Assembly: GCA_013389015.1 (NCBI GenBank)
Contig: JACAEE010000034.1
Location: 1 to 64,000, forward strand
Origin: Hydrogenophilaceae bacterium
GTDB lineage: Bacteria; Pseudomonadota; Alphaproteobacteria; Caulobacterales; Aquidulcibacteraceae
Direction of reading: 5' to 3'
DNA length: 64,000 nt
Part shown: positions 1,273-36,823 of the stretch, piece by piece
Layout of the letters: each line of letters starts with the position of its first letter
Position numbering within the stretch: the stretch's first letter is position 1
Notes under the pieces: generated by a model
Database searches by the model: none
Told to the model about the DNA's origin: nothing
Seen by the model: only the letters and a program-made list of their open reading frames with translations
Made by a program: the position numbers and the translations under genes

Positions 1273-1914
1273 CTACGCCGCGTCCTTCCTGAAATCGCCG
1301 AGCTGCGCATCGAGGGCGCGCTTGAACGCCGGGCGCGCGGTGCAGCGCGCGACATAGGCCGCCAGGTTTGCGTGCTGCGCGGTCAAATCGGGCATGATGC
1401 GCAGGACCGTGGCCATGAGGAGGTCGCCGGCGGTGAAGCGGTCACCGTCGAGGAACGGCTTATCGCCGAGCGCCGCAGCGAGCCCGGCGAGGCGCCGGTT
1501 GGCCAACGCCAGCGCGCTGGGACGGGCAAGCTTCGACCATTCCTGGTCAGCGAGGAAGAGATCGAGCTGCACCACCCGCATGATGAAGGGCTCGACCGAG
1601 TTGAGCGCGGCGATCACCCATTGCACAGCGCGGGCCCGCGCCTGCGCATCCTTGGGCAACAGCGCCTCGCTGCGCTCTCCGATATGCAGCACGATCGCGC
1701 CCGTCTCGAACAGCACGAACCCGTCCTCCTCGAAGATCGGCACCTGCCCGAACGGCTGCAACGCGCGGTACTCGGGCTTGTCCTGATCGCCCTGGGCGAG
1801 CAGCCGCGCGCGATAGGGCAGCCCGGCCTCCTCCAGCGCCCACCGCACGCGCAGATCGCGCACTTGCCCGCGCGCGAAATCGGGAACCCATTCGAAGGCG
1901 GAAATCGTGATCAT
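1273..1914 (-). CDS. glutathione S-transferase family protein
   Basis: MITISAFEWVPDFARGQVRDLRVRWALEEAGLPYRARLL...QPFGQVPIFEEDGFVLFETGAIVLHI, GST N-terminal pattern. Confidence 0.85.
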   Translation of the reverse strand: MITISAFEWVPDFARGQVRDLRVRWALEEAGLPYRARLLAQGDQDKPEYRALQPFGQVPIFEEDGFVLFETGAIVLHIGERSEALLPKDAQARARAVQWVIAALNSVEPFIMRVVQLDLFLADQEWSKLARPSALALANRRLAGLAAALGDKPFLDGDRFTAGDLLMATVLRIMPDLTAQHANLAAYVARCTARPAFKRALDAQLGDFRKDAA

Positions 1915-1931
1915 GGCGTTTCCCCCAGCGC

Positions 1932-2282
1932 TCACATCGTCAGGACGGGCAGGCATTCCATGATCTCGACCCGCTCGCCGGGAAAGATCGTGAAGTGCGG
2001 ATGGTTCTCGAACAGGCGCGCGGCCGCCTCATGCGATTCCGCTTCGAGGATCACGTATCCGGCCATCGCATTGCGGACGTCGCGCACGCCTTCGGGGCCC
2101 ACGCTCTTGGTTCTGCCGAGCGGCCCGCCGCCATCGACGAGCGCGCGCCCCTGCGCCTCCTGCCACGCGAGCCAGGCCTTCATCCCGTCGGCCTCCCGCG
2201 CCTTGCGCACGGCGGGATCCATTGCGTCCCAGGCCGCCCGCCTCTCGGCGGATACAAGATAGATGGCGAGAAACTTCTTCAT
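1932..2282 (-). CDS. YciI-like (YCII) domain protein
   Basis: MKKFLAIYLVSAERRAAWDAMDP...GYVILEAESHEAAARLFENHPHFTIFPGERVEIMECLPV. Confidence 0.7.
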   Translation of the reverse strand: MKKFLAIYLVSAERRAAWDAMDPAVRKAREADGMKAWLAWQEAQGRALVDGGGPLGRTKSVGPEGVRDVRNAMAGYVILEAESHEAAARLFENHPHFTIFPGERVEIMECLPVLTM

Positions 2283-2305
2283 GGCGGCCTCCTTGGGCGA
2301 ACAAA

Positions 2306-2764
2306 TCAGCGATCCGTGAGCGAGCGGGCATAAGCGGCGAGCTTGTCGAACGCGCTCGACCAGCCGCCGACATGGCTGTCGCGCCGCTCCACATCGAGGA
2401 ACGGCGTCTGGTGGAAGGTCTGCGTGGTTTTGCCGTCGCGCTCGGCGAACGTGATGGTGATCAGCGTCTCCACACCGGCGGAGGGGCCCGCGTCCCAGGC
2501 GAACGTGAACACGAGCCGCTTCTCCGGCGCGATCTCGCGATAGACGCCGCCGAACCAGCTCTCGCCATATGCGGCGGACTTGATCATCCCGCGATAGGCG
2601 CCGCCGACGCGGAAATCGATGTCCATGGCCTCGCAGGTGAAACCCTCCGGCCCCATCCAGGCCTGCATGTGCGCGGCCTCGCTCCAGAGCTGGAACACCA
2701 GTCGCGCCGGCGCATCGAAGATGCGGGTGATGAGGAGTTCGTGGTCGGCCAGTTCAGCGCTCAT
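2306..2764 (-). CDS. SRPBCC/AHSA1 family protein
   Basis: LLITRIFDAPARLVFQLWSEAAHMQAWMGPEGFTCEAMDIDFRVGGAYRGMI. Confidence 0.85.
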   Translation of the reverse strand: MSAELADHELLITRIFDAPARLVFQLWSEAAHMQAWMGPEGFTCEAMDIDFRVGGAYRGMIKSAAYGESWFGGVYREIAPEKRLVFTFAWDAGPSAGVETLITITFAERDGKTTQTFHQTPFLDVERRDSHVGGWSSAFDKLAAYARSLTDR

Positions 2765-3099
2765 TCGCCCTTCTCCTTGCGTTTCAGGTCGTCGAGATAG
2801 GCCTGCATCTTGTCGAAGCCGCCGCTCCAGAAGCGCCGGTAGCGCTCAAGCCAGTCATCGAGGCGCTTGAGCGCCGCCGGCTCGAGCCGGCACGGCCGCC
2901 ACTGCGCGTCCCGTCCGCGCGTGATGAGGCCGGCCGCCTCCAGCACTTTCAGATGCCGCGACACCGCCGGCAGGCTGATCGCGAACGGCGCCGCGATCTC
3001 GTTCACCGTGGCCTCTCCCTCGGCGAGACGGGCCAGGATCGCGCGCCGCGTGGGATCGGCGAGGGCGGAAAAGGTCTGGGAGAGGGCGTCGGCGTTCAT
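2761..3099 (-). CDS. ArsR family winged-helix transcriptional regulator
   Basis: LSQTFSALADPTRRAILARLAEGEATVNEIAAPFAISLPAVSRHLKVLEAAGLI; ATGA overlap with downstream SRPBCC gene. Confidence 0.9.
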   Translation of the reverse strand: MNADALSQTFSALADPTRRAILARLAEGEATVNEIAAPFAISLPAVSRHLKVLEAAGLITRGRDAQWRPCRLEPAALKRLDDWLERYRRFWSGGFDKMQAYLDDLKRKEKGE

Positions 3100-3294
3100 T
3101 TAACAAACTATGCAATTAACAGATGCGCTAAATACGAGATGCGCTGTGCAACGTCAAGCGCCAGTGCGCGTCCTTCCGCCGGGACAGCGGCCGACGCGCG
3201 TTAGAGCACCCGGCAGGTGACCGGCGTCACCGCGGCCCGGGCAGGCGTCGCCTAGGGTCACGTCATCGAACCACAACGCCAGTGAGGACCGCCG

Positions 3295-3387
3295 ATGCCC
3301 CGCCTTCTCTCTCTCGCCCTCGCCTTCGCGCTTTCCGCCCCGCTCGCCATCGCGATCCTGCATCAAGGCGCGCAAATCCTGGCTTGA
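3295..3387 (+). CDS. 30-aa hydrophobic small protein, copy 1
   Basis: ATG-TGA read directly: MPRLLSLALAFALSAPLAIAILHQGAQILA; GAGGA upstream; own terminator at 3447-3485; paralogous to 3596 and 3754 ORFs. Confidence 0.65.
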   Translation: MPRLLSLALAFALSAPLAIAILHQGAQILA

Positions 3388-3446
3388 GCGCTTCCCGCTT
3401 CGATCGTCGCGCAGCTCCTCCCTCCCTCGTTGCGACGATCTTCCCT

Positions 3447-3485
3447 GCGGCCCGGACCTGGCTCGGTTCGGGCCGCTTTTTTTTT
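3447..3485 (+). terminator. Rho-independent terminator after small ORF 1
   Basis: Perfect stem GCGGCCCG/CGGGCCGC followed by nine T. Confidence 0.85.
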
Positions 3486-3595
3486 CGCAGGACCCGTCCG
3501 CGTTTTTTCTGCATCGGCGCGCATCCATCCGCCGATCCGCCGGCATCTCCATGGCGTAAGACAACGACGATCACACAATTCCCACGGAGCCCATC

Positions 3596-3688
3596 ATGAA
3601 CAAGTTCTACGCGCTTCTCGCCGCAGTCGCTCTCGTCGCGCCGTTCGCCGCCGTCACGCTGGCGCAAGCTGCGCAGATTGTCGGCTGA
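3596..3688 (+). CDS. 30-aa hydrophobic small protein, copy 2
   Basis: MNKFYALLAAVALVAPFAAVTLAQAAQIVG; upstream GGAG; gapless alignment to copies 1 and 3. Confidence 0.65.
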   Translation: MNKFYALLAAVALVAPFAAVTLAQAAQIVG

Positions 3689-3753
3689 ACGCACACGCGC
3701 CCTTCGTTTCAATCTGTTTCAAAGCATCTCGCACTCGAAAGGAAGTTGAGACA

Positions 3754-3846
3754 ATGCCCCGGCCTCTTTCCCTGTTGGTCGCCGTCGCCCTCTATGCGCC
3801 GCTCGCCCTCGCTGCGCTCTATGTCGCGTCCAACATCGTCGCCTAA
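3754..3846 (+). CDS. 30-aa hydrophobic small protein, copy 3
   Basis: MPRPLSLLVAVALYAPLALAALYVASNIVA; upstream AAGGA; 17/30 identical to copy 1. Confidence 0.65.
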   Translation: MPRPLSLLVAVALYAPLALAALYVASNIVA

Positions 3847-3876
3847 GCCCGCCCGCCTGGCGACGAATCAAGGGAA

Positions 3877-3908
3877 CGCGGACCTCTTCGGAGGTCCGCG
3901 TTTTTCTT
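3877..3908 (+). terminator. Rho-independent terminator after small ORF 3
   Basis: CGCGGACCTC-TTCG-GAGGTCCGCG followed by TTTTTCTTT. Confidence 0.9.
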
Positions 3909-3914
3909 TGCGCA

Positions 3915-6002
3915 TCAGCTTCCCGTCTCTCTGATCCGTACACGGACATGAGCGCTCTTCCCGTCCGCGTCGATGACGCTGACGGTGTGGAATCCCGGCG
4001 CGCTCGGGCGCCAGATCGCGCGCCCGCTGGTCGCTTCGCTCGCCACCGCGCGGCCTTCGGCGTACCATGAGAGCGGCGCGCGCCCGCCCCGCGCGGAGAG
4101 CGAGAGCCCGCGCGAGGCGGCGCCGTAATCGAGCACCAGAATCTCCACGCCGTCCGGCGGAAACAGGATCGTCGGCCCGGCGTCCTCGCCGCGACGCGGC
4201 CGCAGCCGCTCAAGCCCTGGCGCAGCCTCAGCGATTTCTTGCGACGCCGCTCGCCGCGGCGCGTTCGGCGCGATGAGGTCGAACGCTTCAAACAAGAGCG
4301 GCACAGCATCGCTGCGCCCGGTCGCGCCCGCGCGCGGCGCGCCGTCGGGCCGGCCCACCCACACGCCGACGACATGGCCCTCGCCCACGCCGATGGCCCA
4401 TGCATCACGGAATCCGTAAGACGTGCCGGTCTTGAACGCGATGAGCGGCGCGCCTTGCGCCAGGGCCGCGGGCGTGCGTCCGGCCGGCGAAGGCGAACGG
4501 CGCAGGATCTCGAGCACGCGCTCAGCCGTATCGGCGCGCACGAATCGCCCACGCCGCGCCGCGCGATCATTCTGCAGCAGCGTCAAATCGCCTGCGCGCC
4601 CGCCATCGCCGAGCGCGACATAGAGCGACACCAGCTCCTCCAGCGTCATGCCCACGCCGCCGAGCGCGAGCGCCAGCCCCGGCGCCGCCAGCTCGCGGCG
4701 CGGGATGCGCGGACGCGCGCCAGCCTGCGCCAGCGCCGCCTCGAACCGCGCCGGACCGATCCGATCGAGCGTCGCCACCGCCGGCACGTTGAGCGAATGC
4801 TGCAACGCCTCCGCCAGCCGCACGTCGCCGTGGAAGCGCCGATCGAAGTTCTCCGGCAGGTAGCCGGCGAAGCGCTGCGGCGCATCGAGGATGATCGTGT
4901 CCGGCGCCGCGATCCCGTCATCGATGGCGATCGCATAAATGAACGGCTTGAGCGCCGAGCCCGGCGAGCGCACGGCCTGCGTCATGTCCAGATAGCCGCC
5001 CGCGCGATCGAGACCCGCTCCGCCGACGCTGGCGCGCACGGCGCGCGGTTCGATCTCCACCGCCAGCATCGCAATCGAAGCGTCCCGCTCGAGCTCGGCG
5101 GCGTGGCGCGCGGCGAGCGCTTCGAGCGCGCGCTGCAGATCGGCGTCGAGCGTGGTGCGCAGCACCGCCGCGCGCGGATTCTCCCGCGCAAGCCGTTCGG
5201 CCGTTGCGAACGCCATGACCGGGAACGGCGTGCGCGCGGGCAATGGATCGCCCTGCGCTTCGCGTGCGCGTTCTCTCGTGATCAGTCGCGCCGCCGCGAA
5301 ACGATCGAGCATGGCGTTGCGCGCCTGGCGCGCAGCGTCGGGGCGCCGATCCGGCCGGCGCGCTTCCGGCGCCTGCGGCAGCGCGATCAGAAGCGCCATT
5401 TCGCTGTCGTCGAGCCAGACCGGGTCGCGCGCGAAATAGGCGCGGCTCGCCGCGCGCACGCCTTCAAGATTGCCGCCATAGGGCGCAAGCGTCAGATAGG
5501 CGGCGAGGATTTCCCGCTTCGACCAGCGCCGCTCGATCTGCAGCGCGCGCACGATCTCGATGAATTTCGATCCGATGGTGCGCGGGCGCGGCTCGATCAA
5601 CCGCGCCACCTGCATCGTGATGGTGGAGCCCCCGGAGGTGACTTCGCCGTTGCGCAGATAGCTGGCGCTCGCCCGCGCCAGCGCGAGGGGATCGACTCCG
5701 GGGTGAAACCAGAAGCGGGAGTCCTCGATCCTGATCAGGCGGCGCCTGAATTCCGGATCGATCTCATCGAGCCGCGCCGCCAGCCGCCAGCGCCCCTCCG
5801 GCGTCTGCAAGGCGCGAACCCACTGGCCGTTGCGGTCAAGCACGACCGGCGAGACGATATCGGCGCGATGAAGCGGCGGGGGAAACGCGAGATCGAGCGC
5901 AAACAGGATCAGCGACGCGATGATGAACGCCCACGCGATCCGCTTGCCGCGCGGCGAGAGCGGCGGGGGAACGCGCGGCCCTCGCCGCGTCCGTCCGAAC
6001 AC
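3915..6002 (-). CDS. pbpC: penicillin-binding protein 1C (transglycosylase/transpeptidase)
   Basis: [52 protein letters not shown]...[18 protein letters not shown]...[20 protein letters not shown] extends to 6167 but the extra N-terminus is a repeat pair, so GTG at 6002 is proposed. Confidence 0.85.
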
Positions 6003-6150
6003 GGACGATATGCCCCTTCCCCCTTGCGAAGAGGGGGAAGGGGGCGGGGGGCTCTGAGATTGAGCCGCTACGGCGCCGTTTGCGCCTCCGCTTGGACGCC
6101 CCCCCTCCCTACCCTCCCCCGCAAGGGGGGCGGGACGCGACGGAGAGGGC
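6003..6150. repeat. REP/BIME-like inverted pair of G/C-rich hairpins
   Basis: CCCCTTCCCCCTTGCGAAGAGGGGGAAGGGGGCGGGGGGC and, inverted, CGCCCCCCCTCCCTACCCTCCCCCGCAAGGGGGGCGGG; similar pair at 28352. Confidence 0.7.
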
Positions 6151-6163
6151 TCGCGCGCGGCCA

Positions 6164-9100
6164 TCACCCGCCGGGCGGCGCGATGGCGATCCGCCCGACC
6201 GACGTGCGCGCATAGACGCCGGGGCGGTACATGTCCTCCACCTGCGCCGGCGGCATCGTGAAGCTCCCCGCCGTCACCGCGCGCGCCACGTACGCGAAGC
6301 GGAAGCTGGTGTTGCGGATGTCAGCGGCGGCGACGAAACGGTCGTCGCGCGCCTCCGCTATCCGCGCGTACGAAATCACGCCCAGGAACGCGAACGGCCC
6401 GTTGCGCTGGCCGCCGCCATAATAATCCGGCTGCACGCCGTCCTGCGGCCCGAGCACGCTTTCGATCTCCAGCCCTGCCGGCAGGAGGTCGACGAGCACG
6501 GTCGGGAACATGCGCACGCCGGCGGGTTGGCCGCTGATCGAGACGATCACGCGATCGCCCTGGCGCAACTCGCCGAGGTTCGCTACGCGCCCATCGAGCG
6601 TGTAGACGGTCTTGTCGAGGCTGTAGCCGGCGCTGACGGCCGGCGGCGCCTCGCGCGGCGGGCCCTGCAATGTCAGCGTGCGCCACACCGCGCCGCGCCC
6701 GTCATTGCGGAACACCAGCCCGCGCGCGAGCTGCGCGGCGTCGGCGGTGACGCGTCGTCCCGCGCCTGCCGCGCCGTTGAGCGATACGTTCACCGGCCCG
6801 GCGGCGCGCGAAAGCGCGTTGACGGCGAGCAGCGTCTGCGCCTGTTCCTGCGTCATCATCGCTTCCGGCTCGCGCTCCATGCGCGTGAGCCGCGCCCGCA
6901 GCCGCGACACGGTCGCCGTTTCGCCCGCCTCCGCCGCGAGCGCGATGACGCCGGTGAGATCGCGCAGCGGCGTCTGGTACCAGTCGCCCGTATTCTCGTA
7001 GCCGATCGCTTGTTCGGCCAGACGGAACGCGTTGCGCGCGCGCGCGCGGTCGCCCAGATGCGCCAGCGCCGCGCCGATTTGCGCCCGCGCGAGCGGCGAG
7101 GGCTCGTTCCTGAGCGGCGTGTCGTGGAAATAGCGCAGCTGGCCGATATCGGCCTGCCCGGCCTTGGCCAGCACATAGAGCGCATAGGCCGCCGAGCGCG
7201 AGCGCAACAGCTCTTCGGTGTCGTTCGAGCCCGGCCAGCGATAGACTTCGAAATCGTAGGCGACGCCGGCGAAGTCGTTGAGCCGCGCCACGCGCCGGAG
7301 CGCGGCGTAGGCAAGCTCAAGCGCCGCGTCGGGCACGATGTAGCCTTGCGCCTTGGCGCGGACGAGGAAGTCCACAGCGTACGCGCCGACCCATGGCGTC
7401 GAGGAGGCGTCGTTCGCACGCCAGAGCCCGATCGCGCCGTCCGCGCCCTGCCGGTCGAGGATGCGGGTGATCGCGTCCTGCACGCGCCGCCTGAGCCGTT
7501 GATCCTGCGCGCGTCCCACCGCCTGCGCCACCGCGTTGAAATAGAGCAGCGGCATGGATGTGGAGACCAGCTGTTCGGTGCAGCCGTAAGGATAGCGTTC
7601 AAGCTGCGCCAATAGGGGCGCCGGATCGAGCCCAGCGAGCGCCGAGTAGGAGACGACCAGCGATCCTTCCCGCGGCGCGAACCGCGCAAGAACATCCGTA
7701 GGCGGACGATAGCTGACGTTCGGCGCCTGCTCTTCGATCTGCGTTTCGGTGATCGGAAGGTACGGCGCGCGCGCCTGGATCGAATACTCGCGCACCACCC
7801 GCTCGAAGCCCGCGGGCCCCGTAAGCGTAAGCTGCACCTGCCCGAGTCCCGCCGCCGGCGCCGTGATCGCGACCCGCGCCGTGCCGCGCTGGCGCCGCTG
7901 CAGGCGCATGCGCTCGGCCTGCGCCGTCGTGCGCGCCGCGCCGGTCGCGGCGAACGCGGTCTGGTAGGTTCCAGCCGCCCCCTCGACATTGTCGACCGTC
8001 AGCGTCGCCAGCGCCTCATCGCCAGGCGCGAGGAAGCGCGGCAGCACGAGCTCAGCCACCACCGGATCGCGCACGACGAGCGCATGCTCGCCCTCTCCCA
8101 CCGCCGAATTCGACCAGGCGACCGCCATGATCCGCAATCGCCCGTTGAAGTCCGGCACGTCCAGCGGAACGGTCACGCGCCCGTTGCGCCCAACCTCATA
8201 GGCGTTGGTGAACAACGACACCGTCTTCGTCGGCACCACCGTAAGCCCTTCGCCGCCGAGACTGTCGCCGCCCTGGCGCGGTCTGGACGGCGCGCCGAGA
8301 TTGGGATTGAGCAGACGTCCATAATCATCACGCACGAGGACGCCGAGCGCACGGCGCCCGAAGAAGTGCTCGCTCGGATTCGGGCTCTCATACTTGGTGA
8401 GCTGCAGGATGCCTTCATCCACCGCCGCCAACATGACGTTCACCGTCTCGCCGCGCGGCATGTTCTCGATGGCGATGGGCACATTGATGGTTTGGCGCGG
8501 GCGCACCACGCCCAGCCCTTCGCCGACCGCCACCTCCATCGTGCGCGAACCGGTGTCGACCGGCACGTAGGTCACGCCGATGGCGCGCCGCGGCACCGGC
8601 AGGTTGGCCGGATCGCGCGGCGTCATCACCGTGACGAGCACATAGGCGCCGCCGCCCCAGCTCTCTTCGACCGGCAGCGAGATCGTCGCGCCTTCGGCCG
8701 CCACGCTCACAGTGCGCATCGAGAGGACCCGGTCGGTGGCGACCACGACCTGCGCTTCGCCAGCGTAAGGCGCGCGAATCTGGATGTCGGCGCGCCGCCC
8801 GGCGCGCACCGGCTCGCTTGGCCCTGCGACGGTCACCATGTCGGGCGTGTCGCTGTCCTCGCCCCCGCCCCAGCCGGCGTAGAAGCGCGACGAGGTTTCA
8901 GCGCCCTGCCCGTCGCGCACGATCAGCCGGTAGGAGCCGTGATCGAGCCCGCCGCGCGAAATGCGCACCGGCGCATTGGCGGCGATGTCGGTCGTCCCGC
9001 CCGCGATCGGCACGTCGCGCCCGGTGCGGCGCCAGCGCCAGCGGCCATTGTCGAGATACCAGTCATAGCTCCAGTCCTCGCGCACCAGCGTCCATGACAC

Positions 9101-36554: not shown

Positions 36555-36690
36555 CGCCGCTTCGGCCCGCGGCGCGCCACTAGCTAAGGCGCCCGATCGC
36601 GGGGGCCGGGCCCGCCCGCACCCCAGAGCCGGTTCCGGCCCGCGGCGCGCCTCGACGGCGCCGCTCGCCGTCACGGTCCCGGCGCGCCAA

Positions 36691-36723
36691 ATAAAGAAAA
36701 CCCCGGTCCAAGGACCGGGGTTT
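36691..36723 (-). terminator. strong intrinsic terminator, T-tract on minus strand
   Basis: AAACCCCGGTCC-TT-GGACCGGGGTTT followed (minus) by TTTTCTTTAT. Confidence 0.85.
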
Positions 36724-36823
36724 GAGTTAGATAGGGAGGAAACGCCCGATAGGGCGGGCGGCGTCGCGAAACGCCGCTGAGGTTGAAAATACGCTGCACC
36801 GCACAAATCGCAAGTCCATTTTT
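36691..36823 (-). ncRNA. candidate trans-acting sRNA with anti-SD segment
   Basis: Minus strand: promoter-like TTGCGT-N17-ATTTAT upstream; hairpins GCGGCGT/ACGCCGC and CGCCC/GGGCG; unpaired UUUCCUCCCUAUCUAACUC; 12-bp terminator stem then TTTTCTTTAT. Confidence 0.45.

Follow-up and report, generated by a model that had tools for sequence, protein, structure and literature searches.

The VcdRP transcript of Vibrio cholerae is short, carries a 29 aa ORF, ends in an intrinsic terminator and is under the control of CRP (PMC8672173). A conserved run of C residues near its 3' end pairs with translation initiation sites; CRP represses the transcript, and its peptide binds citrate synthase (PMC8672173). 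The peptide family that we describe here is similar in its ORF of about 30 codons, its short terminated transcript, its putative CRP-type control and its 3' C-rich element, but differs in having many paralogues, sites with the geometry of an activator, a predicted membrane peptide, and a C-rich element in only part of the family. No sequence relation between VcdRP and the family has been shown.

Three further systems bear comparison. In the CcaF1-CcsR1-4 locus of Rhodobacter sphaeroides the 3'UTR of a small-protein mRNA gives rise to stress-controlled sRNAs, and CcaF1 is itself a small RNA-binding protein (PMC8625941). The present family likewise consists of alphaproteobacterial small-protein mRNAs with RNA elements in the 3'UTR, whose C-rich loops may, by analogy, resemble those of CcsR1-4. 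However, CcaF1 is a DUF1127 protein, while the family peptides match no Pfam family. ZorO, LdrA/D and IbsC (PMC8309996) are, like our peptides, short hydrophobic single-helix membrane peptides with tandem paralogues, but in our family there is no evidence of antisense RNAs, the C-terminus is not cationic and the promoter is of activator type; toxicity is untested. Finally, cAMP-CRP class II promoters have a TGA-N6-TCA core at -41.5, and their activator has an R-E-x-x-x-R recognition helix and a cNMP pocket. We find the same palindrome core, position, recognition helix and pocket here, but the site reads GTGAC-N4-GTCAC, and the strong sites are largely devoted to one peptide family and not to carbon metabolism.

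The three ORFs from which the analysis started lie in tandem on the + strand of the window, by which we mean the whole 64,000-nucleotide stretch of DNA analysed. They were proposed in a first-pass annotation, and their sequences match the window exactly: copy 1 at 3295..3387 (MPRLLSLALAFALSAPLAIAILHQGAQILA), copy 2 at 3596..3688 (MNKFYALLAAVALVAPFAAVTLAQAAQIVG) and copy 3 at 3754..3846 (MPRPLSLLVAVALYAPLALAALYVASNIVA), each of 30 codons. Its claims of a gapless alignment with 10 of 30 columns invariant, and of 17/30 identical residues between copies 1 and 3 (57%), also held; copies 1 and 2 are 43% identical. The 64 kb contain just 12 ATG-first ORFs of exactly 30 codons, among which copies 1-3 alone consist of at least 60% A/I/L/M/F/V. 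The annotation further assigned each copy a purine-rich Shine-Dalgarno (SD) sequence, and such sequences can indeed be read upstream of all three (GAGGA at about 3284-3288, GGAGC at 3586-3590 and AGGAAG at 3740-3745, respectively). The intrinsic terminators it placed after copies 1 and 3 are both strong, at 3447..3485 (+) and, with a UUCG loop and a fold z of -6.3, at 3875..3906 (+).

A chance origin of the three ORFs is excluded because orthologues exist: the genome G003, of the same genus, has an orthologous three-copy array adjoining the same pbpC gene, and copy 3 differs from its orthologue there by 4 synonymous and 0 nonsynonymous changes. This pbpC gene (penicillin-binding protein 1C; 3915..6167, - strand; Pfam Transgly, Transpeptidase and BiPBP_C) is a neighbour outside the peptide family. 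By tblastn, pbpC matches lie beside arrays at 15 loci, and arrays adjoining pbpC are seen across genera g1, g8 and g11. Also beside the array, at 1273-3099 (-), is a small cluster with a Pfam-confirmed ArsR-type regulator and with ORFs judged AHSA1/SRPBCC-like, YCII-like and glutathione-S-transferase-like on inspection alone. Elsewhere in the window, at 36686-36762 (-), Rfam places a suhB/mmgR sRNA above its gathering score (45 bits), which is unrelated to the array.

We can also ask how far the family extends. A profile of the three copies gives 8 matches at E up to 10 in the window genome, 6 of them at E <0.01, while each g11 genome gives 13-22. Iterating the search yielded 197 distinct units, of which 158 are exactly 30 aa long, with a consensus close to MTKFYALIAACAVFAPMAFATLNQAAQIVA. 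Homologous ORFs in relatives and a dN/dS not near 1 were the two sequence checks that the first-pass annotation had asked for. At E <1e-5, 36 of the 398 genomes of the order Caulobacterales are positive, all in the GTDB family of the window and in genera g1, g8, g10, g11 and g14; four further genomes give single marginal matches at about 5e-4. The named records with the family are Hyphomonadaceae, Caulobacterales and Alphaproteobacteria MAGs, including Terricaulis sp. The pooled dN/dS is about 0.23, and pS exceeds pN in 2496/2508 pairs; the comparisons are not independent of one another, though they point uniformly the same way. Codon evolution thus shows purifying selection at the level of translation.

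No family match above the curated cut-offs was found in Pfam, NCBIfam, PHROGs or PADLOC, no relatives were found on viral contigs, and the literature searched, including papers that name Terricaulis silvestris, held nothing on the peptide family. Rfam at gathering score gave no match in the array and only a tRNA in 16 related loci, the best sub-threshold match in the array being the Caulobacter sRNA CC1840 (21 vs 50 bits). The description of an expanded, undescribed small-protein family of single-helix membrane character is therefore supported by match counts that reach 22 in one genome, by purifying selection and the conservation of length, by the lack of library matches and by a predicted helix over residues 3-29, with translation itself not shown. 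Decayed copies with internal stops were also seen, at L058 (downstream of its member), G029:C2:814261 and G026:C32:92388, and thus the family turns over by birth and death.

The peptides are uniform in their charges and hydrophobicity. Among 135 unique 30-mers, all but one (134/135) have K/R at positions 2-4, none has D or E, and the best 19-residue window has a mean hydropathy of 2.2. AlphaFold predicts one helix over residues 3-29 with a mean pLDDT of 90. Nearly invariant are A10, A18, Q24, A25 and I28-V29. The conserved central A-P of the first-pass annotation held only in part, since Pro16 marks one branch and Pro20 a second, and neither is family-wide. We infer, as the simplest reading, that the peptide crosses the membrane once as a helix, one face of which carries the conserved small residues and Gln. 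As to codon choice, CAA is used in 138/148 cases at Q24 and in 45/101 at Q27.

Scanning the array with the sigma-70 consensus gave no promoter, and the promoters emerged only from aligning relatives. Aligned on the palindrome, the consensus of 104 units shows GTGAC-N4-GTCAC before lead genes, with a TASSTT -10 box 36 bases downstream, no gaps, an A at the inferred +1, and no conserved TTGACA-like -35. These positions put the centre of the palindrome at -41.5, as in class II activation by CRP/FNR proteins. For copy 1 the palindrome lies at 3217..3230 (+, GTGACCGGCGTCAC), an exact site and one of 9 in the window genome, and is followed at the conserved distance by the -10 box TAGGGT (3253..3258, +), with +1 inferred at A3265. 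Of 195 units, 97 carry the palindrome directly, 55 are second genes of pairs and 43 are without it.

The palindrome motif is nearly private to the peptide family. For the extended form GTGACN4GTCACAKC, G019 has 6 sites, 5 of them before members, and G029 has 7, all beside members. The exact shorter palindrome precedes a family-like peptide at 6/11 sites in G019, 5/9 in the window genome, 17/20 in G016, 4/5 in G003 and 4/8 in G012; in these five genomes the reversed-pattern control gives 0-2. A count against a dedicated regulon comes from G010, where a peptide follows just 1 of the 8 palindromes newly examined. The strongest test of the link is G016, where the first profile gave no convincing match (best E 0.04) but a search with the palindrome by itself turned up peptides of 30 aa that start 84-93 nt downstream of it. 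Two divergent small ORFs under palindrome control were missed by the profile, one of 44 aa at G000:C10:19088 (MTHTFSRLARRARQGAHAVSVFALCAVASMVLPVTLSALSQYAA) and one of 35 aa at G000:C128:10752 (MFARNAQWAAVCAIVFALVVVVSVQAAGLPQAMVA), the latter conserved in G003 and with an orthologue in L351.

One CRP-like protein is a candidate for the regulator. It has Pfam cNMP_binding and HTH_Crp_2 domains, the cNMP pocket GEMAVLDGGVRSADIAA and a helix SREKVNR, which shares the R-E-x-x-x-R pattern of E. coli CRP. Its orthologue (E <1e-49) is present in 16 of the 37 genomes of the GTDB family, 14 of these having peptides; in G018 and G022 (genus g9) we detected the orthologue and no peptides, and one genome with peptides, that of the window (83% complete), has no detectable orthologue. 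The co-occurrence has a Fisher p of 2.7e-7, but this value is inflated by relatedness, and phylogeny confounds the association. The crp gene lies within a few kb of a member in five g11 genomes and adjacent to one in G016, and a cyclase-like gene adjoins it in G016 (above the Pfam cut-off) and in G003 (below it). That this protein binds the palindrome is inferred, as we have no binding or expression data, including on ligand-dependent activation. We conclude that the family is new to the libraries searched, that selection acts on it, and that a regulator-operator system is largely dedicated to it, the identity of the binder being an inference.

Members inside arrays have a different promoter. 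A genome-wide pattern search with the consensus GCATCC-N16-GCATCT places it at 3521..3548 (+), before copy 2, with copy 3 behind copy 2, and 29/30 array-internal units carry it at fixed spacing; the reversed control patterns were absent in the genome-wide search. The same element lies upstream of an operon of a DUF6249-like protein, an ECF sigma factor and a small membrane protein in G019, G010, G003 and the window genome (G000:C41:25597, G003:C57:24645, G019:C1:412610, G010:C5:532827), and it also precedes genes of DUF2807 proteins. Because the sigma operon and the DUF2807 genes have it in common, this promoter probably belongs to an ECF sigma factor that is autoregulated, and we infer that it likely serves an envelope-type regulon. 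We matched the sigma factor to no named ECF group. In the first genes of several pbpC-linked arrays the CRP-type and ECF-type promoters overlap.

The transcripts have features of their own. Just downstream of the copy 1 ORF is a 3'UTR hairpin (3402..3440, +; arms GATCGTCGC / GCGACGATC, loop GCAGCUCCUCCCUCCCUCGUU) with a fold z of -2.8, conserved in G003, whose C-rich, anti-SD-like loop contains CUCCUCCCUCCC. In the family we counted 34 distinct [TA]GCTCCC segments, and in 23 aligned terminators 10 of the 13 stem pairs show compensatory changes around a nearly invariant GCUCCC loop core. Another subset has a hairpin whose 5' arm is GATCGTCGC, which comprises the I28-V29-A30 codons, and whose 3' arm is GCGACGATC, within the 3'UTR, so that the stop codon falls in its C-rich loop; such hairpins of at least 7 pairs occur in 55/192 units vs 8.7 in shuffles. 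The V29 codon is GTC in 127/142 cases, compared with 115/263 elsewhere, and the SD sequence GGAGC, which is complementary to the C-rich loop, is found in 76% of the family vs 26% of other genes. Thus many transcripts, not all, carry C-rich hairpin loops, which suggests a second function as RNA, the pairing itself being inferred. The element is absent from the ten genus-g14 3'UTRs inspected, and is therefore a secondary trait, not a family-wide function.

The reading that we favour, with moderate confidence, is a CRP-controlled and largely dedicated regulon of single-helix inner-membrane peptides of about 30 residues. A cyclic nucleotide would bind the CRP-family protein, which would then bind GTGAC-N4-GTCAC at -41.5 and recruit sigma-70 RNA polymerase by class II activation. 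The targets would be many small transcription units, each with its own terminator behind a single peptide ORF or a pair of them. The pbpC-linked array copies, including copies 2 and 3 of the window, would be read instead, or also, from the ECF-sigma promoter, which would tie them to an envelope-type regulon. The peptides are predicted to insert in the inner membrane with the N-terminal K/R cytoplasmic and the conserved Ala/Gln face towards a partner. Our best inference is that they act as small dose-dependent modulators of membrane proteins, with no partner protein identified, and the 3' C-rich loop of many transcripts could base-pair with Shine-Dalgarno sequences. The sequences themselves establish the family, the selection on it, the promoter elements, the co-occurrence with the regulator and the hairpins; CRP binding, membrane insertion, modulation and RNA pairing remain inferences without expression, translation or binding data. 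A bolder and less likely reading is also possible: a second-messenger pathway of cyclase and CRP devoted mainly to switching on multi-copy membrane micropeptides. Their mRNAs would at the same time act as regulatory RNAs with C-rich elements, and the last peptide codons would form a hairpin arm, so that protein and RNA constraints overlap.

The alternative that survives best is a dual-function RNA whose main product would be the C-rich loop, pairing in trans with ribosome-binding sites as in VcdRP, with the peptide coming second. In its favour are the compensatory stems with a fixed loop, the codon-embedded hairpin, the GTC skew and the complementary GGAGC. However, the g14 3'UTRs inspected lack the element, many terminators have ordinary loops, some genes with GGAGC have no loop, conservation of SD and loop may partly reflect common descent, and selection at the peptide level is strong. 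On balance we lean against this explanation without dismissing it.

Less plausible is an exported peptide, in which a Sec signal peptide is cut at A18-x-A20 (A16-x-A18 in the P20 branch) to free a signal of 10-12 residues, e.g., TLNQAAQIVA. Judged by motif only, cleavage is possible for 110/135 peptides, which have an A-x-[AGS]-type sequence at 18-20, with P16 lying at -5; A18 is almost invariant, and the last residues are among the most conserved. But such a motif is often expected by chance in an Ala-rich peptide, and copy 2 of the window (F17-A-A-V) and other V20 members have no usable site. We regard export as improbable. Type I toxins of the Ldr/Ibs/ZorO kind, silenced by antisense RNAs, are likewise an unlikely explanation. 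A hydrophobic helix of <60 residues is present, and tandem short hydrophobic single-helix copies were the criterion that found ZorO (PMC8309996). However, antisense promoter-like sites show no excess (12/190 vs 29/190 in shuffles), and only 6/135 peptides have K/R within the last ten residues, although cationic C-termini are usual, not universal, for such toxins (PMC8309996). The activator-type promoter with its many co-regulated copies and the lack of a PADLOC or Pfam match also argue against toxins. A purely RNA explanation was rejected, given peptide-level selection and the missing C-rich element in g14, as were leader peptides, since most units end in their own terminator.

To return to the regulon of membrane peptides, the promoter that members share, the CRP regulator linked to them, the ECF promoter and the C-rich RNA hairpins go beyond the first-pass annotation and are new here. 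Micropeptide families that escape homology searches can be uncovered through a promoter motif. As many as about 20 genes in a genome, below the length of routine annotation, appear to be one co-regulated set with its own nucleotide-sensing activator. A candidate regulator, an operator, a core promoter and many natural replicates are now in hand, and therefore the role of short membrane peptides, and the reason for their multiplication in some lineages, become genetically testable in relatives that can be cultured, such as Terricaulis.
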